Positions 27,435 to 45,191 of a DNA stretch of 60,301 bases are shown piece after piece (position 1 is the first letter of the stretch; every line of letters begins with the position of its first letter). The DNA is taken from NCBI GenBank assembly GCA_900472785.1, contig UCJH01000091.1, positions 1-60,301 of the forward strand. Reading direction: 5' to 3'. Both the position numbers and the translations under genes were made by a program. The notes under the pieces are model-generated. The model was not told where the DNA came from, searched no databases, and worked only from the letters and a program-made list of their open reading frames with translations. Source of the DNA: Hyphomicrobiales bacterium. Its GTDB lineage: Bacteria; Pseudomonadota; Alphaproteobacteria; Rhizobiales; Rhizobiaceae.

Positions 27435-29090
27435 CTATCTTATGTTGGCGCGCGCACGCGGCCGCTGATCGTTGCGTTCATGTTCGAAAATTGCCGGCGA
27501 TAAGGGTTGCCGATCGCGGATGATATCCGCCCCCTTCTCACCCATCATGATTGTCGGCCCGTTGGTATTGCAGGAGGGGACCCTCGGCATGACCGAACTG
27601 TCGCAGACGCGCAGTCCCTCAAGCCCGTACACCTTCAGGTCGAGCCCGACGACGGCGTCCGGTCCGGTGCCCATCTTGCAGGTTCCGACCGGGTGGTGAT
27701 CGGTCTTGGCATTGGCGCAGCCATAGTCGAACAGCTCATCGTCCGTCATCACCTTGGGACCGGGCAGCCGCTCGGCCATGATGAAAGGTTTGAGCGCCGC
27801 CTGTTGGAAGATTTCGCGTGCGATCTTCAGACCCTCCAGCGACATCTTGCGGTCATGCGGATCGCTCCAGTAGTTGGGATCGATCAGCGGTGCCGCTGCG
27901 GGATCAGACGATGAAAGCCGCACCGTGCCGCGCGAGCGTGGATGCAGATAGGCGGAATTGAGCGTTACACCGGCATTTTTCAACTTTTCGACGCCGGCCT
28001 CGATACCGGAGCCCAGACCAAGGTGAAACTGGATATCCGGCGAACGCGCATTCGGATCGGCATACCAGAAGCCGCCGGTCTCGAAGAGCGACGAGGCCAC
28101 GGGACCGGAGCGAAACAGCACGTATTGCAGCCCGGCCCAGAGCGTGCGGTGCAGCTTGGCGACTCCATCATAGGTGTGATCGCCGGTGCATTCGGAGATT
28201 ACGAAGAGATCGAGATGATCCTGCATGTTGGAACCGACACCCGGCAGGTCGTGCTTGACCTCGACGCCGACGGAGCGAAGGTGATCGGCCGGGCCAATGC
28301 CGGACTGCTGGAGCAGCTTTGGCGAACCGATCGCACCGGAGGACACCAATACCTCGCGGTCGGCCCGGATCGTTTCGAGCCCCTTGGCCGTGGCAATCTC
28401 GACGCCGACGGCGCGGCTTCCTTCCAGCACGATCCGCGTCACCCGCGCGCCGAGCCGCACCGTCAGGTTCTTGCGATCCTTGATCGGGTTGAGATAGGCT
28501 AGCGAGGCGGATGAGCGCCGGCGGTTGCGCTGGGTCAGCTGGTAGAAGCCGACGCCGGCCTGCTGCTTTCCATTGAAATCGTGGTTATAGGGAATGCCGA
28601 GCTCCTGTCCGGCACGAATATAGGCGTCGCAGATCGGCAGGCCGGACACCGGCATGGAAACACCGAGCGGCCCGCCATAGGAATGATAGTCGTCAGCAAA
28701 GCGCTGGTTGTCTTCCGAGCGCTTGAAATACGGCAGAACGCTGCGGTAATCCCAGCCGGTGCAGCCATCCTCGCTTGCCCAGAGATCATAGTCTGCCGCA
28801 TTGCCGCGCGTATAGAGCTGCGCGTTGATCGAGGAGCCGCCGCCGATGACCTTGGCCTGCGTATAGCGCAGCACCCGGTTCTTCATGTGTTTCTGCGGCA
28901 CGGTTTCCCAGCCCCAGCTGGCGACGCCCTTGGTCATCTTGGCAAAACCGGCCGGCATGTGGAACAGCGGATTCCAGTCGCTGCCACCCGCCTCCAGCAG
29001 CAGCACCTTGACATAGGGATCCTCGGTCAGCCGATTGGCCAGGACGCAGCCGGCAGGTCCGGCACCGGTGATGATGTAGTCGTAGGTCAT
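27435..29090 (-). CDS. GMC-family FAD oxidoreductase (choline dehydrogenase-like)
   Basis: A 551-residue flavoprotein. The FAD-binding GxGxxG site is in [20 protein letters not shown] signature 1 is [16 protein letters not shown] and signature 2 is near [17 protein letters not shown]. The catalytic pair is His in [10 protein letters not shown] and Asn in [14 protein letters not shown] seven bases before the ATG at 29090 decides against an upstream TTG. The family oxidises alcohols, with choline, polyols or sugar alcohols as usual substrates. It lies 183 bp after the SDR gene, across a family B repeat, and probably belongs to the sugar ABC operon. Confidence 0.9.
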
Positions 29091-29117
29091 GGTCACGTCC
29101 TTAAAATTCAATTGTCG

Positions 29118-29272: not shown

Positions 29273-30046
29273 CTACAATCGCCCGATCGACAGGCCGCCA
29301 TCCGCATTGATCACCGTGCCGGTCGCAAAACCGAAGCGGCCGGACGCCAGCGCCGCAGCCATCCGGCCGATATCCTCTGCCTCGCCCCAGCGCTTCATCG
29401 GAACCAGACCGCCGTCGATCAGCACGTCATATTTGCCGGAGACATTGGCCGTCATGTCCGAGCGGATGATGCCCGGCCGGATCTCAAAAACCGAAATGCC
29501 GGTCTCCGCCAGCCGCAGGGCCAATCCTTGAGAAAACGACGCAAGTCCCGCCTTTGTCATGCAGTAATCCAGCCGTTCAGGCGAACTCATCGTCGCCGAT
29601 ACCGAGGTGATGTTGATCACCGAGCGCGACTTGCTCGACGGCAGGTCCAGCATTGCCTTGACGACCGCCTGCGTGAAAAACACCGTTCCCCGCAGGTTGG
29701 TGGCGACAATCGCGTCGAAATTCTCCGGCGACAATTCGAGGAAATCTCCGCGGACGACGGAGGCCATGCCGGCATTGTTGACCAGGCATTCGATAGACCC
29801 GAACGCCGACAGAACCGCATCGACCGTTGCCCGGTGTCCGGAAAGCTCGGAGAGATCCGCCTTGAGAAAGATCGCTCTTGCACCGAGGACGGCAAGATCT
29901 TCTAGGACCCCGTTCACCTGATCGGCCTCGCCTATGCCGGTAATCGCGATATCGAAGCCGTCCACGGCAAGCGCCTTTGCGATGCCGAGGCCGATACCAC
30001 GGCGTCCGCCGGTAACGATGGCGACGGGACGTTTCTGATCCGTCAT
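29273..30046 (-). CDS. SDR-family oxidoreductase
   Basis: A 257-residue classical short-chain dehydrogenase. Cofactor loop TGGRRGIGLGIA near residue 12, NNAG in CLVNNAGMAS, catalytic Ser in ITSVSAT, and Y-x-x-x-K as YCMTK. The C-terminus FATGTVINADGGLSIGRL is typical. ATGA overlaps the preceding GMC gene. An Arg in the glycine-rich loop favours NADP(H), though this is weak. It probably reduces or oxidises a keto-sugar or polyol produced by the adjacent GMC enzyme (inference). Confidence 0.92.
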   Translation of the reverse strand: MTDQKRPVAIVTGGRRGIGLGIAKALAVDGFDIAITGIGEADQVNGVLEDLAVLGARAIFLKADLSELSGHRATVDAVLSAFGSIECLVNNAGMASVVRGDFLELSPENFDAIVATNLRGTVFFTQAVVKAMLDLPSSKSRSVINITSVSATMSSPERLDYCMTKAGLASFSQGLALRLAETGISVFEIRPGIIRSDMTANVSGKYDVLIDGGLVPMKRWGEAEDIGRMAAALASGRFGFATGTVINADGGLSIGRL

Positions 30047-31551
30047 GCCGCCAGATCCCTGGAAACGATGTGGTCGGCCACGCGCAGCGCCTGGGCCGCA
30101 ACCGTCAGCGCCGGATTGACCGCCGCCGAGGTCGGCAGGCAGCTGGCGTCGACCACGAACAGGTTTTGATGATCGAAGGCGCGGCAGTAGACGTCGAGCG
30201 GCGCGGAGGCCGGGTCGTTGCCCATGCGCACGGTGCCGCATTGGTGCGACGGCGTGCGCTTGTCGAAGGCACGCGACAGCACGATCGGAAATCCGGCGGC
30301 CTTCAGCGCCTTCTTCAGCTTGTCGACCAGCATCAGATGCGCATCCCAGTTGGTCCGCACCCATTGCAGAACGATTCGCTCGCCATCGACCATGATCCGG
30401 CTTTCCGGATGCGGAACGTCCTCGCTCATCGCGTAAAAGTCGATGGCGTGCGCCGAAATCTGATTCAGCAGCCACTCCGGCACGGACGGAATATTCGCCT
30501 TGAGAATCGGGCCTGAGATGCGGCCAAGCAGCTGCACGTTTCCAAGCGGCGGGCCGCCTGCACCATCGGAAAGGTAATAATCGTTGAAGCCGAAAGTCTT
30601 CTGGTAGATCGACGTATTGCGGAAGAAGGGCGAAATCGCCAGCACGGCGCTGGAATTGTGGTTCATGAAGTTGCGGCCAACCTGATCGGAGCTGTTGGCG
30701 AGCCCCTTCGGATGCTGGGCGTTGGCCGACCGCAGCAAAAGCGCGGACGACTGCACGGCCCCGGCAGAGAGGATGACGAGCCTTGGCGACACCGTTTGCT
30801 CGACGCCGTCCTTGATATAGCGGACGGTCTCGATGCGTTTTCCATCGGCCGCGGTTTCCAGCCGGGTCACACGCGATTCGGTCTGCAGGCGGACATTGGC
30901 GTGCTGCAGGGCGATCGTCAAAGCAGCCGTCTCGGCATCCATCTTGCCGTCGAAGCTGTTGGGATGGGCATCCCAAGGCGTCTTGGCCTTGGCGAGCCAC
31001 GTGTCGATATCGACCCCGAGCGGCAGCGAATAGGGATGGAGGCCGTTTCTTTTCAGCTTCTCTCGCACGGACGCGATCGGCGGCTCGTCCGGCACCGGCG
31101 GGAAGGCGTAGCCCTGCGAATGCGGCGGTTCGGTCGGATCCTCTCCGAGCGTGCCGCGCACCTGATAGAGCTGTTCGGCCCGGCTATACCATGGTTCCAG
31201 TTCCTCATAGGCAAAGGGCCAGGCGGGCGAAATACCCTCCAGATGCACCATCTCGGCAAAATCCTCACGGCGATAGCGCACGAGGACAGCGCCGAAAAAT
31301 TTCGAATTGCCGCCGACATTGTAGTAGTTGCCGGGATTGAAGCCCTTGCCGTCGGTCTCGTACCAGAACTCCTTCGGGCGGAAATGACCGCGCTGGAAGA
31401 TCGCCCGCTGGTCGCGGTTTTCCGGCCGGTCCTCGATATGTCCGCCGGCTTCCAGAATGAGGATCTCCGCACCGGAAGGCGCCAGCGCCGAGGCGATCGT
31501 CGCGCCGCCGATGCCGGAACCGATGATGACGATGTCGGGCTGCTTGGACAT
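30043..31551 (-). CDS. GMC-family oxidoreductase, pyranose/glucoside dehydrogenase-like
   Basis: A 502-residue flavoprotein. N-terminus IVIIGSGIGGATIASALA binds FAD; YYNVGGNSKFFGAVLVRYR matches the substrate/FAD region of sugar-oxidising GMC members. The C-terminal part HQCGTVRMGNDPASAPLD, then NLFVVDASCLPTSAAVNPALT, has the catalytic His and Asn of the GMC-C domain in the form seen in pyranose oxidase and glucoside-3-dehydrogenase-type enzymes. No small (hitchhiker) subunit gene is adjacent. It starts nine bases after the ATPase stop and overlaps the SDR gene. Oxidation of the imported sugar or glycoside is inferred. Confidence 0.88.
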   Translation of the reverse strand: MSKQPDIVIIGSGIGGATIASALAPSGAEILILEAGGHIEDRPENRDQRAIFQRGHFRPKEFWYETDGKGFNPGNYYNVGGNSKFFGAVLVRYRREDFAEMVHLEGISPAWPFAYEELEPWYSRAEQLYQVRGTLGEDPTEPPHSQGYAFPPVPDEPPIASVREKLKRNGLHPYSLPLGVDIDTWLAKAKTPWDAHPNSFDGKMDAETAALTIALQHANVRLQTESRVTRLETAADGKRIETVRYIKDGVEQTVSPRLVILSAGAVQSSALLLRSANAQHPKGLANSSDQVGRNFMNHNSSAVLAISPFFRNTSIYQKTFGFNDYYLSDGAGGPPLGNVQLLGRISGPILKANIPSVPEWLLNQISAHAIDFYAMSEDVPHPESRIMVDGERIVLQWVRTNWDAHLMLVDKLKKALKAAGFPIVLSRAFDKRTPSHQCGTVRMGNDPASAPLDVYCRAFDHQNLFVVDASCLPTSAAVNPALTVAAQALRVADHIVSRDLAA

Positions 31552-31559
31552 ATTCGTTC

Positions 31560-32672
31560 TCAGCGGATGCGGCTCTGGCTTTGCGGATCGAAGAACACGG
31601 CCTTGTCGAGATTGAAGGCAAGCCGTGCGGTCTGCCCGGGCGCGATATGCGCATCGGCGCGCAGGCGGGCGACGACTTCCTTGCCACCCAGCTTGGTTAC
31701 GGCAAACGTATCGGAGCCTGCAGGCTCGACCACATCGATCAGGCAATCACCCTCGACCAGCGAGCGGGCATTGCGATCCGCACCATCAGGGTCGGTCAAG
31801 GCTTCCGGCCGGATGCCGAAGACGATCGGCTTGCCGGCATAGGCCGCAAGCCCGCCGACCTGCGAAACGGGTAGTTTCAGCGGCTCCGCCTCGGGCCGCG
31901 CCAGCACCACGCGCAAATCACTGCCGCCGCCTTCGACCGTCGCCGTCAGGAGGTTCATCGCCGGCGAGCCCATGAAATCGGCGACGAAGAGATTGGTCGG
32001 ATTGTTGTAGATTTCGGCCGGGGTGCCGAACTGCTGCACCTCGCCGTCGCGCATGACGGCGATCTTGGTCGCCAGCGTCATCGCCTCGATCTGGTCATGG
32101 GTCACGTAGACGATCGATGTGCCGGTCGCCTGATGCAGGCGCTTGATCTCGATGCGCATATCGACGCGGAGCTTGGCGTCGAGGTTCGACAGCGGCTCGT
32201 CGAACAGGAAGAGTTTCGGATCACGCACCAGCGCACGGCCCATGGCGACGCGCTGGCGCTGGCCGCCGGACAGCTGGCTTGGCTTTCGGTCGAGCAGATG
32301 GGTGATCTGCAGCACCTTGGCCACCTTGTCGATCGCCTTTTTACGCTCTTCGACCGGCACGCCGCGCATTTCCATGCCGAAGGAAATATTGCCGGCCACC
32401 GTCATGTTCGGATAGAGCGCATAGGACTGGAACACCATGGCGATGTCGCGCTTGGAAGGATGCAGGTCATCGATCGCCCGTCCATCGACCCGGATAGAGC
32501 CCTCGGTGATTGATTCAAGCCCGGCAATGGTGTTGAGAAGCGTGGACTTGCCGCAACCCGACGGGCCGACAAGCACCAGAAAACCACCCTTCTCGAGTTC
32601 AAGATTGATGCCCTTCAGAATTTCCACTGCGCCGAAACGCTTTCTGAGGCCGGAGATTTCGAGGAAAGCCAT
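31560..32672 (-). CDS. ABC transporter ATP-binding protein, UgpC/MalK-like
   Basis: A 370-residue ATPase: Walker A GPSGCGKST, Q-loop AMVFQSYALYPNM, signature LSGGQRQRV, Walker B LFLFDEPLSNLDAKLR, switch His in VTHDQIEAM, and a C-terminal regulatory domain with FGIRPEAL. The N-L-D-A-K-L-R form and the length match carbohydrate importers of the CUT1 family. The start lies a few bases after the permease stop. It serves the two permeases and the binding protein upstream. Confidence 0.93.
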   Translation of the reverse strand: MAFLEISGLRKRFGAVEILKGINLELEKGGFLVLVGPSGCGKSTLLNTIAGLESITEGSIRVDGRAIDDLHPSKRDIAMVFQSYALYPNMTVAGNISFGMEMRGVPVEERKKAIDKVAKVLQITHLLDRKPSQLSGGQRQRVAMGRALVRDPKLFLFDEPLSNLDAKLRVDMRIEIKRLHQATGTSIVYVTHDQIEAMTLATKIAVMRDGEVQQFGTPAEIYNNPTNLFVADFMGSPAMNLLTATVEGGGSDLRVVLARPEAEPLKLPVSQVGGLAAYAGKPIVFGIRPEALTDPDGADRNARSLVEGDCLIDVVEPAGSDTFAVTKLGGKEVVARLRADAHIAPGQTARLAFNLDKAVFFDPQSQSRIR

Positions 32673-32675: not shown

Positions 32676-33620
32676 TTATCCCTTTACGGCGCCCGCCATC
32701 AGCCCGCTGACGAAATAGCGGCCGGCGAGAATATAGACGAGGAGCGTTGGCGCTGCCGCGATCATCGCGGCCGCCATGTTGACATTGTATTCGACGACGC
32801 CGGTCGAGGTGTTGACGACATTGTTGAGCGCAACCGTCATCGGCATCGATTCCCCTGTGCCGGCATAGGCCGAGGCGAACAGGAAGTCGTTCCAGATGTT
32901 GGTGAACTGGTAGATGACCGTGACGACGATGATCGGCAGCGAATTGGGCAGCATGATCCGGCGGAAGATCTGGAAGAAGCCCGCGCCATCGACCTGCGCG
33001 GCCTTGACCAGTTCGGTCGGGAAAGCCTCGTAGAAATTCCGGAAGAACAGCGTCGTGAAGCCCAGACCGTAGATGACATGGACCAGGACGAGGTTGACGG
33101 TCGGATTGCCGAAGCCGAAGGACAGGCCCGTCATGTTTCGAAGCGTAACCCCGAAGCGCCCGAGGCTGCCGAGGATCGTCGCCATCGGCAAAAGCACCGA
33201 CTGGAACGGAATGAAGCAGGCAAACAGCATCAGGCCGAAGACCAGCGTATGGCCGCGGAAGCGCCACTTGGTGAGCACATAGCCATTGAGCGCTCCGAGC
33301 AGCGTCGAGATCAGGACGGCCGGAATGACCATCTTCAGCGAATTCCAGAAATAGCCCTTGATGCCCGCGCAGGTGAGACCGACGCAGGTCTCGCCCCAGG
33401 CCTTGACCCAAGGCTCGAAGGTCGGCGCGCTCGGCAGCGACAGCATGTTGCCGTTCTGGATTTCGTCCATGGTCTTGAACGAGGTGACGAGCATGACGAA
33501 GAGCGGCATCAGGTAAATGATCGCGAACAGCGCCAGAAGGCCGTAGATGACGATCCGGTTGAGGATCTTGATGCCGTTGGCGCGACGGGCGCCGGCATCC
33601 GAGGAGACGATCGCGCTCAT
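32676..33620 (-). CDS. carbohydrate ABC transporter permease (MalG-like)
   Basis: A 314-residue inner-membrane protein of the CUT1 MalG/UgpE type with about six helices. ILNRIVIYGLLALFAIIYLMP forms helix 1, and the coupling loop is ELVKAAQVDGAGFFQIFRRIMLPNS. It overlaps the MalF-like gene before it by four bases. The loop between helices 1 and 2 carries two Cys residues, CVGLTCAG, which may form a periplasmic disulfide. Confidence 0.92.
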   Translation of the reverse strand: MSAIVSSDAGARRANGIKILNRIVIYGLLALFAIIYLMPLFVMLVTSFKTMDEIQNGNMLSLPSAPTFEPWVKAWGETCVGLTCAGIKGYFWNSLKMVIPAVLISTLLGALNGYVLTKWRFRGHTLVFGLMLFACFIPFQSVLLPMATILGSLGRFGVTLRNMTGLSFGFGNPTVNLVLVHVIYGLGFTTLFFRNFYEAFPTELVKAAQVDGAGFFQIFRRIMLPNSLPIIVVTVIYQFTNIWNDFLFASAYAGTGESMPMTVALNNVVNTSTGVVEYNVNMAAAMIAAAPTLLVYILAGRYFVSGLMAGAVKG

Positions 33621-34567
33621 CGTGCTTTCTCCCTGAGTTCTGAATAGAGATAGGGAACGATGATCGCCGTGATCGTCATCAGCATGATGATCGCGCTGGC
33701 GGACCCGACAGCCATCTCATTGCGCTTGAAGGTATATTCGTACATGAAATTGGACGGCAGCCATGCCGAGCCACCGGGGCCGCCGCTGGTCAGCGCCACG
33801 ACAAGGTCATAGGACTTGATGGCCATGTGGGCGAGCACGATGAACGCGGACAGGAAGACCGGCCGCAAAAGCGGAATGATGATGCGCCGGTAAAGTTGCG
33901 GGGTCGTCGCGCCGTCGATCTGGGCGGCTTTCATGATCTCGCCGTCGATGCCGCGCAGGCCCGCCAGGAACATTGCCATGACAAAGCCGGAAGCCTGCCA
34001 GACACCGGCGATCACGACCGTATAGATGACGAAGTCCTTGTTCTTGATCCAGTCGAAATGAAAGCTCGTCCAGCCCCACTGGTGCAGGGTCTGTTCCAGA
34101 CCGAGGCCCGGATCGAGGAACCACTTCCAGGCGACGCCGGTGACGATGAAGGACAAAGCCATCGGATAGAGATAAATTGGTCGCAGCACGCCCTCGCCGC
34201 GGATCTTCTGGTCGAGCAAAATGGCCAGAAACAGACCGAGCGCCAAGCAGATGCCGATATAGAGAAAGCCGAAAATCCCCATATTGGTGATCGACGTATA
34301 CCAGCTCGACGGCGGGTCGCTCTCGAAGGTCCAGCGCCAGAGCCTTTGATAGGCCCGCGCACCCGTGATCGCGTAGGACGGGAAGGTTTTCGAATTGGTG
34401 AAGGACAGATAGCCCGTCCAGAGGATGAAGCCATAGACGAAGATCAGCGTGATGACGAAGCTGGGAGCCAGCACGATCTTCGGTAGCGCGTCCTGCAGGC
34501 GGGAGCGGATGGAGCTGCGTGTGGAACGCTCCGTCAGGCTGATTTCAGGTGTCGCGACAGTGCTCAT
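33617..34567 (-). CDS. carbohydrate ABC transporter permease (MalF-like)
   Basis: A 316-residue inner-membrane protein of the CUT1 type with about six helices, starting after a 30-residue cytoplasmic tail. The coupling loop is EIMKAAQIDGATTPQLYRRIIIPLL. It overlaps the next permease by four bases and follows the binding-protein gene by 101 bp containing a palindromic repeat. Confidence 0.92.
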   Translation of the reverse strand: MSTVATPEISLTERSTRSSIRSRLQDALPKIVLAPSFVITLIFVYGFILWTGYLSFTNSKTFPSYAITGARAYQRLWRWTFESDPPSSWYTSITNMGIFGFLYIGICLALGLFLAILLDQKIRGEGVLRPIYLYPMALSFIVTGVAWKWFLDPGLGLEQTLHQWGWTSFHFDWIKNKDFVIYTVVIAGVWQASGFVMAMFLAGLRGIDGEIMKAAQIDGATTPQLYRRIIIPLLRPVFLSAFIVLAHMAIKSYDLVVALTSGGPGGSAWLPSNFMYEYTFKRNEMAVGSASAIIMLMTITAIIVPYLYSELREKAR

Positions 34568-34653: not shown

Positions 34654-34668
34654 TTTGAAATCAGACGC

Positions 34669-35928
34669 TTACTTTGCGTCTTCGATCGCCTTGACGAGTT
34701 CTTCGACAGCCTGATCGGAGCTGGTGATCTGGCCATGAACGAACTTGGAAACGACGTCCTTGTAAGCGTTGGCAACGGATGGCGGTGCGCCATAACCCTG
34801 GGCCAGTGAACCGAACAGCGTGCCGCCGTCGTTCGCTGCCTTCAGGTCGGCGATGCCCTTCTTGCCGCAGGCGTCGAAGTCCGTGTCCGGAACGTCGGTA
34901 CGGGCCGGAACCGAACCCTTGACGACGTTGAAGGCCGACTGGAAGCTCTTCGACAACGTCGCTGTCGCGAGCGCAACCTGGGCGGCCTTCTGGTCGTCCG
35001 GAACGTTGAACATGCCGAACATGTCGGAGTTGTAGATCACGCTGCCATCGGTGCCGGGGAAGCGGTAGCAGAGGAAGTCCGTGTCCGGGGTCTTCTGGGC
35101 TGCGACGAACTCGCCCTTCGCCCAGTCGCCCATGACCTGAACCAGTGCATCGCCCTTGATGACCATGGCGGTCGCAAGGTTCCAGTCGCGGCCCGAGAAG
35201 TTCGGATCGACATACTTGATGATGGTTGCGAGATTGTCGAACGACTTCTTCATCGTGTCGGACTTCAGCGATTCCTCGTCGAGATCGTTGAAGGCCTTCT
35301 TGTAGAACTCAGGTCCGCCCGTCGAAAGAACGATCGAGTCGAACATCGTGGCTTCCTGCCAGTTCTGCCCACCGAGGGCCAGCGGAATGACGCCGGCAGC
35401 CTTGGCTTTTTCGAGCAGCGCAACCAGATCCTCGAAGGTCTTCGGCTCGGTGCCGCCGATCTTGTCCATCACGGCCTTGTTGATCCACAGCCAGTTGACG
35501 GAGTGGACGTTGACCGGGGCTGCGACCCACTTGCCGTCATAGACGGAGAACTTCTGCAGGGCGGCCGGAACCGACTTGTCCCAGCCTTCCTTGACCGCGG
35601 TTTCCGTGAGGTCGCCCATCACGCCGGCAGCCGCATAGTCGAGCACGGTGTAACCGAGCATCTGCGATGCCGTCGGATAGGTGCCGGCGGCAACCATGGC
35701 CTTCAGCGCGGTCATGGCAGCGTCGCCGCCGCCGCCGGCAACCGGCACGTCCTTCCAGGCAAAGCCTTCCTTGGACAGATCACCCTTGAGAACGTTCAAG
35801 GCAGCCGCTTCGCCGCCCGACGTCCACCAATGCAGCATCTGAACTTCCTTGACGTCTTCTGCGTGGGCTGCAGCGCAACCCATCACCATCAATGCTGCCA
35901 TCGCTGTCGTCGTCATAAACTTGCGCAT
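34669..35928 (-). CDS. carbohydrate ABC transporter solute-binding protein (glucose/mannose-type)
   Basis: A 419-residue periplasmic protein. The signal peptide [24 protein letters not shown] ends in A-H-A; the Cys at residue 18 sits in a poor lipobox, so a soluble protein is more likely. The mature N-terminus [16 protein letters not shown] and [25 protein letters not shown] match GtsA-type glucose/mannose binding proteins. GGAGG six bases before the ATG supports the start at 35928. It opens the operon and is divergent from a LacI gene. Glucose, mannose or a glycoside is the likely ligand (inference from family). Confidence 0.92.
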
Positions 35929-36038
35929 CGTATTCCTCCCGGTTGCAAGTCTTACAAAGCGGAATCCCTTCCGCCGTTGAGTGCCGTCCCGTTCCCAATG
36001 ACGGGGTAGCAATTGGTCGCGGCATCCGCCGCTGCGGT

Positions 36039-36058
36039 AATTTAAAACGTTATAAATT
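36039..36058. promoter_or_regulatory. LacI-type operator, site 1
   Basis: AATTTAAAACGTTATAAATT is a 20-bp palindrome with one mismatched pair, centred on the CG step typical of LacI-family operators. It lies 111 bases before the binding-protein start codon. Confidence 0.8.
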
Positions 36059-36174: not shown

Positions 36175-36194
36175 AATTTAAAACGTTTTCATAG
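36175..36194. promoter_or_regulatory. LacI-type operator, site 2
   Basis: AATTTAAAACGTTTTCATAG repeats the first 13 bases of site 1 exactly; the central AAAACGTTTT is a perfect dyad. Its centre is 136 bp from that of site 1, close to 13 helical turns, and 68 bases before the LacI start codon. Confidence 0.75.
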
Positions 36195-36262: not shown

Positions 36263-37306
36263 TTGGCCGACACCCCCAGATCCACGGCGCCGGAACAGCA
36301 GGCAAGACATGTCCGGCCGACCCTGCGGACCATTGCCGACATCACCGGCTTTGCGGTCACCACGGTCTCGCGGGCGCTGAGCAATGCGCCGCAGATTTCG
36401 GCCGACACCCGCAGGCGCGTCCATGAAGTGGCCAGCGAGATCGGCTACCTGCCGGACCGGGCGGCACAACGCCTGAAGACGGGGCGAACCAATGTCATCA
36501 GCGTGCTGCTCGACCCGCACGAGGAAATCCTCGGATACGGCACCTCTCTGATGCTGGGCCTTGCCAAGGCGCTCGGCGGCACGCCGTTCCATCTCATCGT
36601 CACGCCGAACTTTCTCAACGACAGCAATGTCGATGCGGTGCGCCACATCGTCCGCAACAGCATGGCCGACGGGCTGATCTTTTCGCGCACCGAGCCTTTC
36701 GATCCGCGCGTCCGCTTCCTTCTCGAAAATGGCTTTCCCTTCGTCTCGCACGGAAGGACGGAATTCTCCGCGCCGCACCCTTACGTCGACTACGACAATT
36801 TCTCGTTCGCCTATGAGGCGACGAAGCGGCTGATCGTCCGGGGCCGACGCAAGCCGTCGATCATCCTGCCACCGAAGCGCATGACATTCTCGCAGCATCT
36901 GCTGCATGGATTCATGACCGCCATCCGGGAGGCGGGCGTCGCCTACGAAATCCCCGACGAGATTCATCTCGACAGCCCCATCGACCAGATTCGCGACTAT
37001 ATCAGCCGGCGCGCAGGCAAGCCCGACTGTCCCGATGGTTTCACCTGCGGCGGCGAAGTTTCGGCGCTCGCCACCATCACCGGCATGAGCGACCACGGCC
37101 TGACGCTCGGCGTCGAATACGACATCGTCGCCAAGCAAACCTCGAAACTGCTCGTCAACATCCAGCCAAAGGTCGAGACCATCTACGAGGACCTGACGGA
37201 CACCGGCGAGCAGATGGGCCGCGTCCTGCTTGCCCGCATCGCCGGCAATGACACGGTGAACATGCAGGTCCTGCTGAAGCCGACGGTCAATTTTCCCGTG
37301 GCTTGA
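36263..37306 (+). CDS. LacI-family transcriptional regulator
   Basis: A 347-residue regulator. A 19-residue leader precedes the DNA-binding head TLRTIADITGFAVTTVSRALSN, followed by the hinge helix region GYLPDRAAQRLKTGRTNVI. The effector domain is of the periplasmic-binding type. The start codon is TTG, with only an A/G-rich stretch upstream; no better start is available. It is divergent from the glucose/mannose-type ABC operon, and two LacI-type operators lie between them. Repression relieved by the imported sugar or its derivative is inferred. Confidence 0.9.
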   Translation: MADTPRSTAPEQQARHVRPTLRTIADITGFAVTTVSRALSNAPQISADTRRRVHEVASEIGYLPDRAAQRLKTGRTNVISVLLDPHEEILGYGTSLMLGLAKALGGTPFHLIVTPNFLNDSNVDAVRHIVRNSMADGLIFSRTEPFDPRVRFLLENGFPFVSHGRTEFSAPHPYVDYDNFSFAYEATKRLIVRGRRKPSIILPPKRMTFSQHLLHGFMTAIREAGVAYEIPDEIHLDSPIDQIRDYISRRAGKPDCPDGFTCGGEVSALATITGMSDHGLTLGVEYDIVAKQTSKLLVNIQPKVETIYEDLTDTGEQMGRVLLARIAGNDTVNMQVLLKPTVNFPVA

Positions 37307-37625: not shown

Positions 37626-39137
37626 TTACGAACGCGGCATCCACCAGCCGGTGCGCCCGCCGATATGCATGTTGAGCGTCTTTGTCTCGGTATAATCCTC
37701 CACCGCATGGCGGCCGAGTTCGCGGCCGAGGCCGGACTGGCGGTAGCCACCGAACGGCAGTTCGGACGCGCCGTCCATGAAAGTGTTCATCCACACCGTG
37801 CCCGCCCGCACCTTGCGGCCGATCGTCAGGCAGGTGTCGAAGTCGCGGCTCCAGACGCCGGCCGACAGGCCGTAGTCAATGGAATTGGCGATGCGGATCG
37901 CCTCTTCCGTCGCCTCGAAGGTCAGAACGGAAAGGACCGGGCCAAAAACCTCTTCACGCGCGACAGCCATGTCCGGCGTGACGGCCGACAGGATGGTCGG
38001 CGACATGAACTGGCCGGAGCCGAGATCAAGTGCCGAACCGCCATGCGAGACGGTTGCGCCGTTGCCGGAAGCGGCCGAGACATAACCGACGATCTTTTCC
38101 AGGTGTTGCGGCGTGATGATCGCGCCGACCTGCGTCGAGGGATCGAGGGGATCGCCGACCTTGACCTTCGCCGACATCGCCGCGATGCGGGCGATGACAT
38201 CCTCAGCGATTTCCTTGTGTACGATCAGCCGCGAGCCGGCATTGCAGCATTCCCCCGCATTGAAATAGGCGCCGAAAACCGCGGCATCGATGAAGTCGTC
38301 CAGATTGGCATCGGGAAAGACGATCTGCGGGTTTTTGCCGCCGAGTTCCAGCGACACCTTCTTCAGGGTCTGTGCCGCGTTGCTCATCGTCAGCTTGCCG
38401 ACGCCGGTCGAGCCGGTGAAGGAAACCATGTCGACATCCGGATGGGACGTCATGATTGCGCCGACATCCGGGCCGGTGCCGGTGACTATGTTGACGACAC
38501 CGGCGGGAACGCCTGCTGCTTCCAGAATTTCGCCGAGCACCAGCGTCGAACCGGATGTCAGTTCGGACGGCTTGACCACCGTCGTGCAACCGGCGGCGAG
38601 CACAAACGGCAGCTTCTGGCTGACGATCAGGAAGGGAAAATTCCACGGCGTGATGATCGAGACGACGCCGATGGCTTCGCGCAGAACGACACCGAGCGTG
38701 CCGTCGCCCAGCGTGTTGTAGCTCTCACCATGCAAATCTCGTGCAAGGGCCGCCGCATAGCGCCAGATATCCGCTGCGCCACCAAGCTCGGCTTTCGCCT
38801 GACTGATCGGCTTGCCGCTCTCAATGCAGTCGAGATAGGCGAGTTCATCGGCCCGCGCGGCAATCATGTCTGCGGCCCTGAGCAGGACCAGCGACCTTTC
38901 GGACGCCGTCATCCTTGGCCATGGGCCATCCTCGAAGGCTTTTCGTGCTGCAGCGATCGCCCGCTCGGCATCGGCCTTCGTCGCTGCCGGATAACGGCTG
39001 ACGGTAACGCCATGACCGGGGGCTACGCGCTCCAGCGTCTTGCCTTCAGCGGCATCGATCCACTTGCCATCGATCAGCATCTTGAAATCGCGCACCGCGA
39101 TATCGCCGAGCGACTTCGGCTTCACCAGTACCGTCAT
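37626..39137 (-). CDS. aldehyde dehydrogenase
   Basis: A 503-residue enzyme of the betaine-aldehyde/gamma-glutamyl-semialdehyde type. Motifs: TPWNFPFLI, KPSELTSGST, FTGSTGVGKL, general base Glu in LELGGKNPQ, nucleophile Cys in FNAGECCNAGSR, EVFGPVL and a C-terminal PFGGYRQSGLGRELG. An ATG at 39143 abuts GGGAGA with no spacer, while the ATG at 39137 has six bases, so 39137 is used; it overlaps the crotonase stop as TAATG. It is the last gene of the LacI-led operon. The substrate is an aldehyde from the same pathway (inference). Confidence 0.92.
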   Translation of the reverse strand: MTVLVKPKSLGDIAVRDFKMLIDGKWIDAAEGKTLERVAPGHGVTVSRYPAATKADAERAIAAARKAFEDGPWPRMTASERSLVLLRAADMIAARADELAYLDCIESGKPISQAKAELGGAADIWRYAAALARDLHGESYNTLGDGTLGVVLREAIGVVSIITPWNFPFLIVSQKLPFVLAAGCTTVVKPSELTSGSTLVLGEILEAAGVPAGVVNIVTGTGPDVGAIMTSHPDVDMVSFTGSTGVGKLTMSNAAQTLKKVSLELGGKNPQIVFPDANLDDFIDAAVFGAYFNAGECCNAGSRLIVHKEIAEDVIARIAAMSAKVKVGDPLDPSTQVGAIITPQHLEKIVGYVSAASGNGATVSHGGSALDLGSGQFMSPTILSAVTPDMAVAREEVFGPVLSVLTFEATEEAIRIANSIDYGLSAGVWSRDFDTCLTIGRKVRAGTVWMNTFMDGASELPFGGYRQSGLGRELGRHAVEDYTETKTLNMHIGGRTGWWMPRS

Positions 39138-39916
39138 TACCATTCTCCCTTGAATTCCGCGGGGCGTTTGCCGGAAAAGGCCGCAACACCCTCTTTCATG
39201 TCGCCGGTCTTGGCAGCCAGGATCGATCCCAGCGCCTCGACGGCCGTACCATTGTCTTCGCCGTTCGCCGAGGCGATCATCAGCTTGCAGATTTCGAGAG
39301 CCGCAGGTCCGCGCTCGGCGATGCGGCCGGCATAGGCCTTCGCGGCGGTCAGCCCCGTTCCCGTTTCCGCAACCGCATCGACCAAGCCGAGAGCGCGAGC
39401 CTCTTCCGCGGAAAATATCTCGCCGCCCAGCACCATGCGGCGCACGGTCTGTGCACCGAACCGCTTGACGAGACGCTGCGTGCCGGACCAGCCGGGCACC
39501 ATGCCGAGGCTGGTTTCCGGCAGGCCGATTTTAGCCTGCACTTCGGCGATCCGAATATCAGCCGCTGCCGCCAATTCCAGACCGCCGCCGAGCGTGTGAC
39601 CGTTGATGGCCGCGATCAACGGCATGCGCAGCGTCGCCAGCCGCTCGAAGACGCGGTGACCGAAACGTACCCATTGGTGACCGAAATCGCTCGGGCTCAT
39701 TGGCCCCCAGGCCTTGATGTCGCCGCCCGCGCAGAAAGCCTTGCCCTCGCCGGTGATGATCGCGACGCGAATAGTGGCATCGGCTTCGATCGTGTCGCAG
39801 GCAGCGCCAAGCGCCGTCAGCATGTCGATATCGAAGGCATTCAGTTTTTCCGGCCGGGCGATCGTCAGTATTGCAATCGCATTCTCGATTTCAATCCTGA
39901 TCCGGGCATCAGACAT
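39137..39916 (-). CDS. enoyl-CoA hydratase/isomerase (crotonase) family protein
   Basis: A 259-residue crotonase-fold enzyme. Oxyanion-hole segments are GKAFCAGGDIKAWG and INGHTLGGGLELAAAADIRIA; PETSLGMVPGWSGTQRL holds the active-site Glu region. GGGAGG five bases upstream of the ATG at 39916 supports the start, which overlaps the CoA-transferase stop by eight bases. Family reactions are hydration, isomerisation or C-C cleavage of acyl-CoA. Its position between a CoA transferase and an aldehyde dehydrogenase implies it acts on the CoA thioester formed in this pathway. Confidence 0.92.
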   Translation of the reverse strand: MSDARIRIEIENAIAILTIARPEKLNAFDIDMLTALGAACDTIEADATIRVAIITGEGKAFCAGGDIKAWGPMSPSDFGHQWVRFGHRVFERLATLRMPLIAAINGHTLGGGLELAAAADIRIAEVQAKIGLPETSLGMVPGWSGTQRLVKRFGAQTVRRMVLGGEIFSAEEARALGLVDAVAETGTGLTAAKAYAGRIAERGPAALEICKLMIASANGEDNGTAVEALGSILAAKTGDMKEGVAAFSGKRPAEFKGEW

Positions 39917-41522
39917 GCGCACCTCCCGCAAGACTGCGCAGCGGCTTCTGCGGCAGCGTCAGTCCGATCGGCGCTTCATGAAACAGCGCCGCGTCCATAA
40001 TCTTGAGGTCGCCGGAAACGATCAGCGGGAATTCCGACTGGTCGAGAATATGGGTCTGCAGATCGACGCCCGGCGCGATCTCGGTCAACACGATGCCTTC
40101 CGGCGTCAATTTCATGACGCAGCGTTCGGTGACATAGGTGATGTCCTGGCCCTGCTCGACGGCGCGACGGCCGGAGAAGGTGACGTGCTCGACTTCGCTG
40201 ACCAGCTTCTTCAGCTTGCCCTCCTTCTCGATCACCAGCTTGCTGTCGGCCATCGAGAGCTTCGCCCCGGCATTGAACATGCCCGAGAAGACAATCTTCT
40301 TCGCCCGCGCGGTAATATCCACGAAACCGCCGGCCCCGGCCGTCACATGTGGACGGAAGGACAGTTTCGAGACATTGACCGAGCCTGATCTGTCGATCTC
40401 GAGGAAAGACAGGAGCGAAGCATCGAAGCCCGCGCCCTGAAAGTACGTGAATTGGTGAGGCGACGGCATGAAGGCGTCAGCGTTTGAGGCGCAGCCGAAC
40501 GCAAAATCGAGCAACGGCACGCCGCCGACAGCCCCCTGCTCGATGACCCATGTGACGGAGCCGTGCAGCCCTTCTTCCAACAGGATACGCGGCACGTTGG
40601 CCGAAATGCCGAAGCCGAGATTGACGCAGCTTCCGCCTTCAAGCTCCTGCGCGACGCGCCGCGCAATAACCTTCTGGATATTGAATTCCGGCACGCGAAA
40701 ACTGTCGAGCGGCCGGAAGATCTCGCCGGAGATGGCTGGATCGTAATCCGTCAGCGTCGTCTGCTTCTGGTCGGGATCGACGATCACGTAATCGACCAGC
40801 ATGCCGGGAACGCGCACGTCGTGCGGCTTCATGGAGCCGGATTTGGTGATGCGCTTGACCTGCGCGATGACGATGCCGCCATTGTTGCGGGCGGCGAGCG
40901 CCTGGTCGAGACCGCCGAGGTAGGCGCCTTCGTGTTCATAAGTCAGGTTGCCGCGCTCGTCGGCGGTGGTAGCCCGGATGATCGCCACCTGCGGCACGAT
41001 CGCCTTGAAATACAGCCAGTCCTCGCCCTCGAATTCGATTTTCTTGACGACCGGCTTCAAGGCCGCCGAGGCATTCATCGCGCAGCCCTGGCGCGCCGGA
41101 TCGACGAATGTGTCGAGGCCGATCTTAGTCAGCACGCCGGGGCGCTTGGCCGCGGCTTCGCGGTGCATGTCGAAGAGCACGCCCGAAGGGATATTATAGG
41201 CCACGACCTCGTCCTTGCCGATCATCTGCCAGATCAGCGGCGGCTCGGACGTCGAGGGACCGGAGGGGTAGGACCCGCCGATGATTGTCTTCAGAAGCCC
41301 CTTTTTCGCAATATAATCGACGCCCTTGATGCCGCTCATGTCGCCGGCGGCGATCGGATGGAGCGTCGTCAGGTTTTTCGGATGTCCGGTCGCGTCGAAA
41401 CGTTCGCCGATCGCCTTCAGCATCAGATCCGGGCAGCCGAGACCGCTGGACGAGGAGACGGAAACGACCGCGTCGTCGGGAATAAGGGAGGCGGCTTTAG
41501 CCGGGGTGATATGCTTGCTCAT
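39909..41522 (-). CDS. acyl-CoA:acetate/3-ketoacid CoA transferase (fused alpha-beta subunits)
   Basis: A 537-residue class I CoA transferase with both halves in one chain. The first half has AVVSVSSSSGLGCPDLMLKAIGER and IGGSYPSGP; the second starts near VAQELEGGSCVNLGFGI and contains VIEQGAVGGVP, with the Glu that forms the CoA thioester intermediate. The ending LTEIAPGVDLQTHILDQSEF is typical of propionate/acetoacetate-type enzymes. It starts ten bases after the Gfo/Idh stop and overlaps the crotonase gene. It activates a carboxylic acid with CoA from acetyl-CoA or succinyl-CoA; the acid is unknown. Confidence 0.9.
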   Translation of the reverse strand: MSKHITPAKAASLIPDDAVVSVSSSSGLGCPDLMLKAIGERFDATGHPKNLTTLHPIAAGDMSGIKGVDYIAKKGLLKTIIGGSYPSGPSTSEPPLIWQMIGKDEVVAYNIPSGVLFDMHREAAAKRPGVLTKIGLDTFVDPARQGCAMNASAALKPVVKKIEFEGEDWLYFKAIVPQVAIIRATTADERGNLTYEHEGAYLGGLDQALAARNNGGIVIAQVKRITKSGSMKPHDVRVPGMLVDYVIVDPDQKQTTLTDYDPAISGEIFRPLDSFRVPEFNIQKVIARRVAQELEGGSCVNLGFGISANVPRILLEEGLHGSVTWVIEQGAVGGVPLLDFAFGCASNADAFMPSPHQFTYFQGAGFDASLLSFLEIDRSGSVNVSKLSFRPHVTAGAGGFVDITARAKKIVFSGMFNAGAKLSMADSKLVIEKEGKLKKLVSEVEHVTFSGRRAVEQGQDITYVTERCVMKLTPEGIVLTEIAPGVDLQTHILDQSEFPLIVSGDLKIMDAALFHEAPIGLTLPQKPLRSLAGGAHV

Positions 41523-41532
41523 GCGCGTTGTC

Positions 41533-43580
<2,048 letters not shown>

Positions 43581-43630
43581 GTCATCCTCCCGAATAAGGC
43601 ATTTCAGCCCCGTTGCTGCGCCTCAAATAA

Positions 43631-43648
43631 TTGGATCGTTCCAAATTT
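43631..43648. promoter_or_regulatory. LacI-type operator, LacI-operon side
   Basis: TTGGATCGTTCCAAATTT contains a perfect TTGGA-N4-TCCAA dyad. Fifteen bases (43634-43648) are the exact reverse complement of 43855-43869. It lies 50 bases before the LacI start. Confidence 0.8.
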
Positions 43649-43854
43649 GTCAAGCATCCTGCTGAAAGAATTGTCAGGCCGGCATTGCAAACACCAAACC
43701 ATGCGACCGGATATAAGACTGAAAAACCTGATTATAATCAATTTTATCAAAATAATTACAATGCTTTCGACACATCGGGGTCGATATCCGATCTCAATTG
43801 TTGCCTTTCAGGGGAGGAAATTCCAACCCATGGCGCCGTGAAAAATGCAGCTTG

Positions 43855-43872
43855 AAATTTGGAACGATCTAA
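43855..43872. promoter_or_regulatory. LacI-type operator, DUF993 side
   Basis: AAATTTGGAACGATCTAA carries the same 15-bp word in inverted orientation, with one mismatch in the dyad (TCTAA for TCCAA). It lies 35 bases before the DUF993 start codon, where bound repressor would block transcription. Confidence 0.8.
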
Positions 43873-43907
43873 ATTATTCGACATCGGCCATCGTGAGGAG
43901 GAAATCC

Positions 43908-45071
43908 ATGACAGCCACTTTGCCGCTTCCCTGTGCCGACGGAACTGTTGCGGCCTACCGCCTCACCGGAACGCCGGTCGAGCGTCCGGCGGCACCGCCG
44001 CGCTTCAACCGCATCGCCTATGCGGCTGCCCATGTGGTGTCCGATCCGCTGCGCGATGCGACGCCCTGGGGCCAGCCGGCGATCGACTGGGATACGACGA
44101 TGGCCTTCCGCCACCACCTCTGGAGCCTCGGCTTCAAGATCGCCGAGGCGATGGACACGGCGCAACGCGGCCTCGGGCTTGATTGGTCCGGCGCGCAGGA
44201 ACTGATCCGCCGCTCGCTGGCCGAGGCGCGCACGATCCCCGGCGCCGATCTCGCCTGTGGCGCCGGAACCGATCATCTGGCGCCGTCGGAAACCAGATCG
44301 CTGGATGACGTCATCCGCGCCTATGAAACGCAGGTCGGCTTCGTCGAGAAGGAGGGCGGTCGATCGATCATGATGGCAAGCCGCGCGCTGGCAAGGATCG
44401 GCACGTCGTCGGATGACTATCGCAAGGTTTACGGCCACATCCTGCGCCAGACGAAAGACAAGGTGGTCCTGCACTGGCTCGGCGACATGTTCGATCCGCA
44501 ATTGAAGGGCTACTGGGGGTCGGAAAATTTCGAAACCGCTCTTCAGACCGTGCTGTCGATCATTCAGGACAACAGGGCGAAGGTCGAGGGCATCAAGATT
44601 TCGCTGCTCGACAATGCCTGCGAAGTGGCCCTGCGCGATCGCTTGCCGGACGGCGTACTCTGCTTCACCGGCGACGATTTCAACTATGCGGAGCTCATCG
44701 AGGGCGACGGCAAAAAATACAGCCACGCCCTGCTCGGCATCTTCGACGCCGTCGCGCCGTCCGCATCGAAGGCGCTGGCATCGCTGGCAGCGGGCGACGT
44801 CGACACGTTCCGCAGCGTGATCGAACCCACCGTCCCGCTGTCGCGGAAAATCTTCGAAGCGCCGACGCAATATTACAAGGCGGGCGTCGTCTTCCTGGCC
44901 TGGCTCAATGGCCACCAGAAGCATTTTACCATGCCGGCCGGCATGCAGTCCGCGCGTGGCGTGCTGCATTATGCGGATGTCTTCCGGCTTGCGGATCAGG
45001 CAAACGTGCTCGACAATCCCGATCTCGCCGTCAAGCGGATGACGGCCTTTCTCACGACGCAAGGTTTCTAG
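43908..45071 (+). CDS. DUF993 family protein (dihydrodipicolinate synthase-like)
   Basis: A 387-residue protein recognised as DUF993, a family often labelled dihydrodipicolinate synthase-like (TIM-barrel aldolase). Seen: ARFNRIAYAAAHVV-type start region PPRFNRIAYAAAHVVSDP, FRHHLWSLGFKIAEAMDTAQRG, then KVVLHWLGDMFDPQLKGYWG and GIKISLLDNACEVALRDRLP, where the Lys of the G-I-K-I-S strand is a Schiff-base candidate by analogy with that superfamily. GAGGAGG precedes the ATG. Frames starting earlier run through the operator and are rejected. It is divergent from the LacI-Gfo/Idh-CoA operon and shares its operator sequence, so it likely performs a retro-aldol or dehydratase step there (inference). 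Confidence 0.88.
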   Translation: MTATLPLPCADGTVAAYRLTGTPVERPAAPPRFNRIAYAAAHVVSDPLRDATPWGQPAIDWDTTMAFRHHLWSLGFKIAEAMDTAQRGLGLDWSGAQELIRRSLAEARTIPGADLACGAGTDHLAPSETRSLDDVIRAYETQVGFVEKEGGRSIMMASRALARIGTSSDDYRKVYGHILRQTKDKVVLHWLGDMFDPQLKGYWGSENFETALQTVLSIIQDNRAKVEGIKISLLDNACEVALRDRLPDGVLCFTGDDFNYAELIEGDGKKYSHALLGIFDAVAPSASKALASLAAGDVDTFRSVIEPTVPLSRKIFEAPTQYYKAGVVFLAWLNGHQKHFTMPAGMQSARGVLHYADVFRLADQANVLDNPDLAVKRMTAFLTTQGF

Positions 45072-45191
45072 CGCATCCGAGTGGCGCATAGGAAAACAGG
45101 CGAACCGGCGCTGAAAAGTCGAAAAACATTCCCATTTTCCTGTCCATGCTGTAGCGCAGACTGCGAGACATCGAGACGACTTGGAGCGGGA

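Follow-up and report, generated by a model that had tools for sequence, protein, structure and literature searches.

The window, that is, the whole stretch of 60,301 nt that was analysed (positions 1-60,301 of contig UCJH01000091.1, assembly GCA_900472785.1, Hyphomicrobiales bacterium, Rhizobiaceae), carries between 27435 and 45071 a group of ~14 genes (~17.6 kb) which probably constitutes one catabolic locus, importer included. Gene identities, conserved linkage, operators, the fold of DUF993 and the intactness of catalytic residues were computed for the following features:

27435..29111, minus strand: GMC flavin oxidoreductase 2 (choline-dehydrogenase/alcohol-oxidase type; PF00732/PF05199)
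29273..30046, minus strand: SDR dehydrogenase of 257 aa (adh_short Pfam domain; tblastn with the S. meliloti SDR)
30052..31563, minus strand: GMC-family oxidoreductase 1 (79% over 504 aa to an S. meliloti protein annotated as GMC family oxidoreductase, by tblastn)
31560..32672, minus strand: ATPase of an ABC sugar importer, MalK-like (PF00005, OB_MalK)
32676..33620, minus strand: ABC importer permease B (PF00528)
33617..34567, minus strand: ABC importer permease A (matches the permease in the S. meliloti AFR locus at 67%)
34669..36012, minus strand: solute-binding protein of the importer (PF01547; matches its counterpart in the S. meliloti AFR locus at 62%)
36040..36056: first likely operator site for the second LacI, ATTTAAAACGTTATAAA, with the core word AAAACGTTAT
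36176..36192: second likely site for the same regulator, ATTTAAAACGTTTTCAT, from the same search as the first
36263..37306, plus strand: second LacI-family regulator, divergent from the importer (PF00356, PF13377), beside the importer in many relatives
37626..39143, minus strand: aldehyde dehydrogenase (ALDH), L-sorbosone-dehydrogenase-like (PF00171)
39137..39931, probable ATG start 39916, minus strand: crotonase (enoyl-CoA hydratase; PF00378)
39909..41522, minus strand: fused class I CoA transferase, YdiF/FadX type (PF01144; 2ahu YdiF, 384 bits)
41533..42534, minus strand: predicted 1,5-anhydro-D-fructose reductase (AFR) orthologue (2glx, 534 bits; 4koa, 532 bits)
42531..43580, minus strand: LacI-family regulator (PF00356, PF13377)
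43631..43644: predicted operator TTGGATCGTTCCAA, ~50 bases upstream of LacI
43859..43872: predicted operator TTGGAACGATCTAA, ~35 bases upstream of DUF993
43908..45071, plus strand: DUF993 protein of 387 aa with predicted DHDPS fold (PF06187, 613 bits)

From ALDH to LacI all genes lie on the minus strand with gaps or overlaps of at most 10 bases, provided that the crotonase starts at 39916, and DUF993 is divergent on the plus strand. Gene coordinates and Pfam matches confirm in this respect the tight five-gene unit of a preliminary description of this DNA. Together with DUF993 these genes make up roughly half of the locus; the rest comprises two GMC flavoenzymes, the SDR, the ABC importer and the second LacI with operators of its own. 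The importer (31560-36012) and the second LacI (36263-37306) follow directly downstream of the six-gene unit and had been missed. For DUF993 the ATG at 43908, behind AGGAGG at ~43896, is the more likely start, while the ATG at 43845 is disfavoured because the operator would then fall inside the gene. The SDR represents only the C-terminal part of a long ORF (29273-31000), where the S. meliloti SDR matches 30046-29276 in tblastn (76% over 257 aa). The nearest solved chains of GMC 2, which lies near the SDR in relatives, are choline dehydrogenase, a chloramphenicol-inactivating oxidoreductase and alcohol oxidase.

Enzyme assignments and conserved residues

The Gfo/Idh protein had been read as an oxidase of a sugar or cyclitol. 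Instead, its match to AFR, a reductase of solved structure, is orthologue-grade, with 241 of 331 residues (73%) identical to 2glx over the full length (E 8.7e-160). Lys94, Asp176 and His180, which we take to be the active-site residues of AFR, are kept in 98 of 98 loci with at least 48% identity. Glu328 of the CoA transferase, presumably the catalytic Glu of EXGXXG in class I enzymes, is kept in 132 of 132 loci with at least 60% identity. The same holds, at an identity of at least 42%, for Glu119 and Glu139 of the crotonase (132 of 132), which we assume to be the two acid/base Glu of a hydratase/dehydratase; its best solved match is 3-hydroxypropionyl-CoA dehydratase (5zai). For ALDH the best solved match is 3u4j, which has a generic name (554 bits), followed by L-sorbosone dehydrogenase 7w5l (548 bits), and Cys300/Glu266 are kept in 105 of 105 loci with at least 50% identity. 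The intact catalytic residues support the CoA-activation module that had been suggested for these genes.

DUF993 resembles the solved structure 4dnh (SMc04132; TM 0.96, 56% identical), and its AF2 model has a pLDDT of 88.4. Among the 50 Foldseek matches listed for this model, those to the DHDPS family reach E 1e-8 to 4e-7 (TM 0.51-0.64 by query, 0.63-0.82 by target), pointing to a DHDPS-type TIM barrel; the modelled fold thereby favours the earlier label of an aldolase-like protein. Lys230 and His189 are kept in 208 of 208 loci with at least 40% identity. Lys230 lies on strand 226-232 of the model and was aligned to the DapA lysine in a weak hhalign match (probability 8%), so that it probably takes the Schiff-base position on strand 6. 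In the same weak match His189 falls at the column of the catalytic Tyr on strand 5 of DapA (Tyr133 in E. coli). Because His189 takes the place of this Tyr, DUF993 would be a divergent lyase at most. No paper on DUF993 or 4DNH was found under those names in the open-licence literature.

Elsewhere in the order, 67 of 119 DUF993 places adjoin another Gfo/Idh and an isomerase. These paralogues belong to the same DUF993 family (49-60% identity), but a CoA transferase, which is present here, was found in none of the 67 fetched stretches of up to 17 kb. In a DUF993 tree (quick mode, 130 rows) the neighbourhood types are clustered, none of them as a single clade. The association with other Gfo/Idh proteins (25-31% identical to AFR among the matches listed) and an isomerase would fit the preliminary idea that the Gfo/Idh enzyme oxidises a sugar or cyclitol and that DUF993 splits or dehydrates the product. 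However, the Gfo/Idh here matches AFR, a reductase, and the window yielded no orthologue of the isomerase, which makes this idea quite improbable.

Operators and two LacI regulators

The 15-bp word AAATTTGGAACGATC occurs in mirror orientation before both units, as had been described, and is part of a LacI-type palindrome TTGGAWCGWTCYAA (43631-43644 and 43859-43872). Within the 5.38-Mb genome exact matches exist only at these two places, and two other places match with one mismatch. A loose window search with up to two mismatches gave four matches, all at the two operator places (both strands), which is not significant alone because 2.1 were expected and four were reached in 25 of 100 shuffles. 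In LacI/DUF993 intergenic regions of the same divergent layout, the form TRGAWCGWTCYA is present at least once in 66 of 66 and twice in 59, with one further match elsewhere in those loci (L091:3542). Conservation across the 66 loci is strong evidence for an operator, and together with the genome-wide uniqueness of the exact copies it rejects a chance occurrence. The conserved palindrome with its central CG at the divergent promoters suggests a local LacI-type regulon.

At the importer, the core word AAAACGTTAT was found in 15 of 31 importer/LacI2 intergenic regions, while the AFR-type palindrome was absent from all 31. The sites at 36040 and 36176 are the sole places in the genome for the second-LacI word with at most one mismatch. 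Control of the importer by the AFR-side LacI is not supported in this genome, as a different operator is present there. Since the importer side and the AFR side have different operators, it is likely that two regulators act on the locus, perhaps with two inducers.

By gene order, the LacI at 42531..43580 presumably corresponds to S. meliloti SMc04401. The S. meliloti regulon prediction assigns to SMc04401 a motif and a regulon that averages 4.04 genes, and the parts of it considered here, which concern the same regulator by locus name, contain neither a function nor operator letters (PMC4560400). A study on LacI regulons (PMC4052901) mentions neither AfrR nor anhydro.

Conservation of the gene neighbourhood

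A comparison of neighbourhoods, as proposed in the preliminary description, covered the 80 most similar relatives, and 62 of these keep all six genes in the same order and orientation. The binding protein has a match in 55 of the 62; within 10 kb none was found in the remaining seven, all from the Brucella/Ochrobactrum group. The same neighbourhood is present in S. meliloti (L112). Two other families (L280-L284) carry operator, AFR, CoA transferase, crotonase, (ALDH), importer, GMC1, SDR and GMC2 on one strand, with the operator found before AFR in four of the five loci. DUF993 is encoded on that strand of the same contig too, at a distance of ~11 to 15 kb from AFR. The earlier statement that the operon holds no dedicated importer is true of the operon as it was read, but not of the locus, since the importer lies downstream, recurs in most six-gene relatives and, in several other families, is colinear with the genes for AFR and the CoA enzymes. 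In the betaproteobacterium Leeia CoA transferase, crotonase, ALDH, importer, SDR, GMC, DUF993 and glycerate kinase stand in a row; of the two operator words, one falls within the gene for the binding protein and the other precedes a second such gene, and the fetched stretch showed no LacI of the AFR-side type.

Across 397 genomes (at most five candidates scored per genome for AFR, at most three for CoA transferase), this CoA transferase lies within 3 kb of 34 of 41 AFR genes (at least 51% identity, one per genome), and three of the other seven keep LacI and operator. CoA transferases of at least 61% identity occupy 65 places among the matches listed, in 60 of the 397 genomes, and 41 of these places are within 20 kb of DUF993. 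DUF993 is present in 55 of the 60 genomes versus 116 of 397 overall, and Fisher values on the co-occurrence of AFR, CoA transferase and DUF993 ignore the relatedness of the genomes.

DUF993 is not obligatory, because six of the 41 AFR genomes are without any DUF993 match. As an obligatory partner it is also rejected by seven clusters (L244-L250) which, without AFR and adjacent DUF993, still have the operator along with most core genes. The proposal of one pathway unit thus stands insofar as there is a single conserved LacI-bracketed unit, but the six genes are not its natural extent, since they are repeatedly accompanied by GMC and SDR genes and these seven clusters retain most of the remaining genes. 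No DUF993 match was found in 39 fetched AFR-/CoA-transferase-centred loci (L244-L263, L273-L284, L286-L292), several of which were chosen because DUF993 lies elsewhere. Two of them, L250 and L256, have a FAD_binding_2 flavoprotein on the divergent side instead, and L255 has a BLAST relative of that flavoprotein.

A possible route for 1,5-anhydrohexitols

The best reading of 27435-45071 is a larger, aerobic locus for 1,5-anhydrohexitols. That the substrate is 1,5-anhydro-D-fructose (AF), 1,5-anhydro-D-mannitol (AM) or a related anhydrohexitol may be right or wrong with about equal chance, and for the explanation as a whole, a locus for a 1,5-anhydro-sugar with a working model, the balance is similarly even. 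For this model we infer the substrate, the order of steps, all chemistry after AFR and the reaction of DUF993. The CUT1-type ABC importer would take up the sugar, and AFR would reduce AF to AM with NADPH. A GMC flavoenzyme and the sorbosone-dehydrogenase-like ALDH could convert the alcohol at C6 into an acid, from which the CoA transferase would form a thioester, and the crotonase would remove the 4-OH, which is in the beta position, by elimination. Ring opening of the enol ether so formed would yield 2-keto-3-deoxy-D-gluconate (KDG). DUF993 may split KDG, or a closely related compound, into pyruvate and glyceraldehyde, the latter leaving as glycerate. Of the two LacI-type regulators, each with an operator pair of its own, one would control the importer side and the other the AFR/CoA/DUF993 side. 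The SDR and the second GMC have no clear step in this route.

KDG is proposed as an intermediate on purely chemical grounds. As AFR sets the manno configuration, exactly D-KDG would be formed, while the gluco epimer would not give it (Fischer-projection reasoning by hand). The full route through KDG is nevertheless doubtful, and only tentatively do we suggest a CoA-dependent, kinase-free and P450-free aerobic 1,5-anhydrohexitol pathway in which DUF993 cleaves KDG as a new His-type DHDPS-fold aldolase. The non-phosphorylative Entner-Doudoroff pathway likewise comprises KDG, a DHDPS-superfamily aldolase and glycerate kinase, but here the pathway would be entered through an anhydrosugar acid and a CoA ester rather than through gluconate dehydratase. 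A glycerate kinase accompanies the locus in Leeia and, together with LacI-AFR-ALDH-importer, in L291, as expected because of the C3 product. It is rare elsewhere (4 of 119 DUF993 places, 2 of 80 relatives, 2 of 39 AFR-/CoA-transferase-centred loci), and the own genome has one MOFRL-type glycerate kinase away from the locus.

The ring might also be opened in a retro-Claisen manner, with oxidation of the CoA ester at its beta-hydroxyl by the SDR and hydrolysis of the C-C bond by the crotonase. The SDR gene recurs in these clusters and crotonase-fold C-C hydrolases exist, but the two Glu of the classical hydratase are invariant, the best solved match is a dehydratase and the product would be an awkward ether, so that this variant is highly improbable.

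A catabolic role of AFR in Rhizobiaceae is already in print (PMC12441222 section 5.1). The AF catabolism of S. morelense (Kuhn, Yu and Giffhorn 2006) involves the same reductase in the same bacterial family; its published scheme leads to mannose by C1 oxygenation, whereas the neighbour genes suggest a post-AFR route by CoA ester, unlike the one proposed so far, and the present locus also names importer, regulators and DUF993. For AM, C1 hydroxylation to mannose by an unidentified P450-like hydroxylase is reported (PMC12441222 section 5.1). If that route is right, the oxygenase would be encoded elsewhere and the CoA/DUF993 genes would belong to a separate pathway sharing the operon. Five P450 matches in the own genome, none on the contig of the window, agree with this. 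However, no P450 was among the window proteins scanned, and AFR stands beside the CoA transferase in 34 of 41 genomes, which renders this explanation unlikely. Anaerobic gut bacteria use the same class of substrates, 1,5-anhydroglucitol/anhydromannitol, by PTS and glycyl-radical enzymes (Ma et al., as summarised in PMC12441222), in contrast to ABC import, flavin and NAD(P) enzymes and CoA here, where no kinase was seen in the locus.

A 2025 review lists AF use by Rhizobiaceae after the reductase step as unidentified; for this part of the pathway the locus provides a few candidate genes, together with an importer and two regulators. DUF993, with a solved structure, gains a concrete substrate hypothesis. 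A CoA ester that opens a sugar ring would be unusual, if true; no CoA route for anhydrosugars was found in the open-licence literature (titles and abstract openings among the matches listed).

The substrate could instead be another 2-keto sugar, e.g. an osone, or a glycoside-derived sugar, AF reduction being a side activity. AFR is said to reduce osones in the 2006 study of the enzyme, L-sorbosone dehydrogenase ranks first among the solved matches of ALDH that carry a specific name, and core clusters without AFR exist. By locus numbering, smc04396 is presumably the adjacent binding protein in S. meliloti. Against this substrate, which we regard as possible but not probable, Rhizobiaceae metabolise AF, which arises from starch and glycogen, according to PMC12441222. 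The reported induction of smc04396 by dextrin (PMC4960864) fits an alpha-glucan-derived sugar, and fits a malto-oligosaccharide importer equally well.

The anhydrofructose reductase and its gene unit

The locus holds a bold but testable pathway proposal around a known enzyme, 1,5-anhydro-D-fructose reductase (AFR). The Gfo/Idh protein had been taken for an oxidase of a sugar or cyclitol in the preliminary description, which was not borne out. Its closest solved relatives, 2glx (534 bits, 241 of 331 residues identical) and 4koa (532 bits), are both named 1,5-anhydro-D-fructose reductase, and the next match scores 118. Lys94, Asp176 and His180, which we take to be the AFR active-site residues, are present in 98/98 matched AFR loci. 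According to a 2025 review (PMC12441222 section 5.1), in Rhizobiaceae a specific reductase turns 1,5-anhydrofructose into 1,5-anhydromannitol, which is converted to mannose by a P450-like enzyme, still unidentified. Given the match to 2glx and 4koa and this account, the Gfo/Idh protein is, judged by sequence, an already known enzyme that acts as a reductase.

Gene and family calls bear out the positions and families of the six genes, i.e. aldehyde dehydrogenase (ALDH), crotonase, CoA transferase, AFR and LacI on the minus strand and DUF993 divergent on the plus strand. Order and orientation of all six are kept in 62 of 80 related loci, a sample skewed toward close relatives since it comprises the best 80 of 590 candidates. 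Contig ends truncate 2 of the 18 other loci, and in L032 and L094 (L-numbers denote gene neighbourhoods of other genomes) some six-gene matches are only partial. An FkbM-type methyltransferase gene (45081-46055) starts 10 bases past DUF993 on the same strand, and has relatives (62-64%) in three loci, L034, L038 and L039.

The 15-bp word noticed before both divergent units is real. It forms the core of a palindrome of LacI type, TTGGAWCGWTCYAA, which lies at 43631-43644 and 43859-43872 and has no other exact copy in the 5.38-Mb genome. Among divergent LacI/DUF993 relatives, 66/66 intergenic regions contain at least one palindrome and 59/66 contain two, while the remainder of these loci yields a single stray match, in L091. 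A loose palindrome search of the window alone, with 2 mismatches, was not significant. Outside the window, operator-like sites with one mismatch occur at C35:24336 and C95:2860 of the same genome. The DUF993 start should be 43908, which is preceded by AGGAGG; the upstream ATG at 43845 was rejected because the operator would then fall inside the gene.

The importer and the wider locus

Beyond the six-gene unit, the locus comprises the following features:

Downstream of the six-gene unit: ABC importer, CUT1 type
36040-36056 and 36176-36192: likely operator pair of the second regulator LacI2 (ATTTAAAACGTT...), between the importer and the LacI2 gene
30052-31563: GMC1, flavin oxidoreductase
29273-30046: SDR
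27435-29111: GMC2, flavin oxidoreductase

The earlier statement that no dedicated importer lies in the operon holds for the operon itself, but a match to the solute-binding protein (SBP) lies inside the examined stretch in 57/80 loci, among them 55 of the 62 that have all six genes. The 7 six-gene loci in which none was found in that stretch all belong to the Brucella/Ochrobactrum group. The LacI2 operator pair gives the only genome matches at up to one mismatch; its core is shared by relatives and is unrelated to the AFR-side operator.

The genes surrounding the six-gene unit recur in S. meliloti and Rhizobium records. In L280 the AFR-side operator, AFR, CoA transferase, crotonase, ALDH, SBP, permeases, ATPase, GMC1, SDR and GMC2 follow each other on one strand throughout, with AFR at contig position 18036 and DUF993 at 31055, both on the plus strand. 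L281-L284 are close variants (two without detected ALDH, one with reversed LacI2, one without detected operator), and this colinear layout of L280-L284 comes from two other families. A third group, L273-L277, shows LacI, AFR, CoA transferase, crotonase, ALDH, importer and GMC1, with operator words preceding LacI and no adjoining DUF993. Leeia oryzae has a row of CoA transferase, crotonase and ALDH, importer, SDR, GMC, DUF993 and glycerate kinase; its two operator words carry less weight, as one falls within the SBP gene and the other ahead of a second SBP gene. Because the importer adjoins the core in relatives and in the colinear families, it very probably belongs to the AFR/CoA/DUF993 system.

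By locus numbering the adjacent SBP is presumably smc04396 of S. meliloti, in agreement with the gene order of L112. PMC4960864 cites smc04396 as dextrin-induced. 1,5-Anhydro-D-fructose (AF) originates from starch and glycogen, via lyases and GH31 side reactions, according to PMC12441222. Dextrin induction fits AF and is equally compatible with malto-oligosaccharides.

Linkage of AFR, CoA transferase and DUF993

A less biased sample of 397 genomes of the order was searched, scoring the best few candidates per genome. AFR (at least 51% identity) occurs in 41 genomes, and in 34 of these 41 the CoA transferase of this locus lies within 3 kb. Of the other seven AFR genes, three retain LacI and the operator alongside importer, ALDH or crotonase; in L291, which is among the three, a glycerate kinase is present as well. 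At 61% identity or above, the CoA transferase was found at no fewer than 65 places, spread over 60 genomes. DUF993 is present in 55 of these genomes and lies within 20 kb at 41 of the 65 listed places. DUF993 is present in 35 of the 41 AFR genomes, within 20 kb of AFR in 23. Fisher values for these linkages are very small, calculated as if genomes shared no common descent.

Two results speak against a fixed partnership: six of the 41 AFR genomes have no DUF993 match, and in the seven clusters L244-L250 AFR and an adjacent DUF993 are missing, whereas the operator and most of the other parts are retained. Overall, the preliminary observation is confirmed and its interpretation supported in part. 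In L250 (11991-16219), L255 and L256 an FAD_binding_2 flavoprotein occupies the divergent side, DUF993's place here; in L250 it is accompanied by another Gfo/Idh and a PfkB kinase.

DUF993 is present in 116/397 genomes. The 126 matches comprise our own, 119 examined places, 4 partial and 2 weak ones; the 119 were surveyed for 14 families over flanks of about 8 kb, or less near contig ends. Another Gfo/Idh, always paired with an isomerase, lies at 67/119 places and a CoA transferase of at least 35% identity at 35/119 (3 of these only about 40%), the two together at none of the 119. Crotonase was found at 31, ALDH at 17 and AFR at 16 places, and none of the 14 families at 8/119. In the DUF993 tree neighbourhood types are clustered, and no type forms a single clade.

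A possible CoA-dependent route

Catalytic residues are kept in CoA transferase (132/132 loci), crotonase (132/132) and ALDH (105/105) at identities of at least 60%, 42% and 50%, respectively. After reduction of AF to 1,5-anhydro-D-mannitol by AFR, we infer every further step: C6 would be oxidised to the acid by GMC and ALDH, the acid converted to its CoA ester, and the 4-hydroxyl removed by the crotonase; the enol ether would then open to a 2-keto-3-deoxyhexonate, which an aldolase could split into pyruvate and glyceraldehyde. On paper, the whole route would need no kinase. Rotated by hand, the Fischer projection of the manno epimer has its C4 and C5 hydroxyl groups on the right-hand side and corresponds to 2-keto-3-deoxy-D-gluconate, whereas the gluco epimer would lead to the L-threo isomer. 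This difference would explain why AFR makes the mannitol. The release of the acid from CoA, the SDR and one of the two GMC enzymes have no assigned place in this scheme.

The one solved relative of DUF993 is 4dnh (SMc04132), 56% identical. The AF2 model of DUF993 (pLDDT 88.4, 35-row alignment) resembles DHDPS-family enzymes, including the KD(P)G aldolase 2r91. Lys230 and His189, invariant in 208/208 DUF993 loci and borne on predicted strands 6 and 5, fall in a weak profile alignment (probability 8%) on the Schiff-base lysine and catalytic tyrosine of DapA. DUF993 may therefore act in the manner of a class I lyase whose proton relay is altered; it should not be classed as DHDPS.

In the literature searched, so far as its text was available, no description of the AFR surroundings, the importer, the two operator pairs or the proposed CoA route was found; AFR itself is already known.

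Glycerate kinase lies near AFR, CoA transferase or DUF993 in L099, L100, L115, L116, L117, L120, L254 and L291. Being rare in the surveys (4/119 DUF993 places), these neighbours lend a C3 product only slight backing. A sister DUF993 cluster in L117 (S. meliloti pSymA) and L120 (Paracoccus) contains CoA transferase, crotonase, acyl-CoA dehydrogenase, SDR, isomerase, glycerate kinase, GMC and aldo/keto reductases and ETF genes, and looks like a beta-oxidation-style sugar route. Plasmid pAO1 (L116:7768-14385) carries a carbohydrate cluster with GMC, ALDH, Gfo/Idh, DUF993 and glycerate kinase, the ALDH of which is annotated for xylose.
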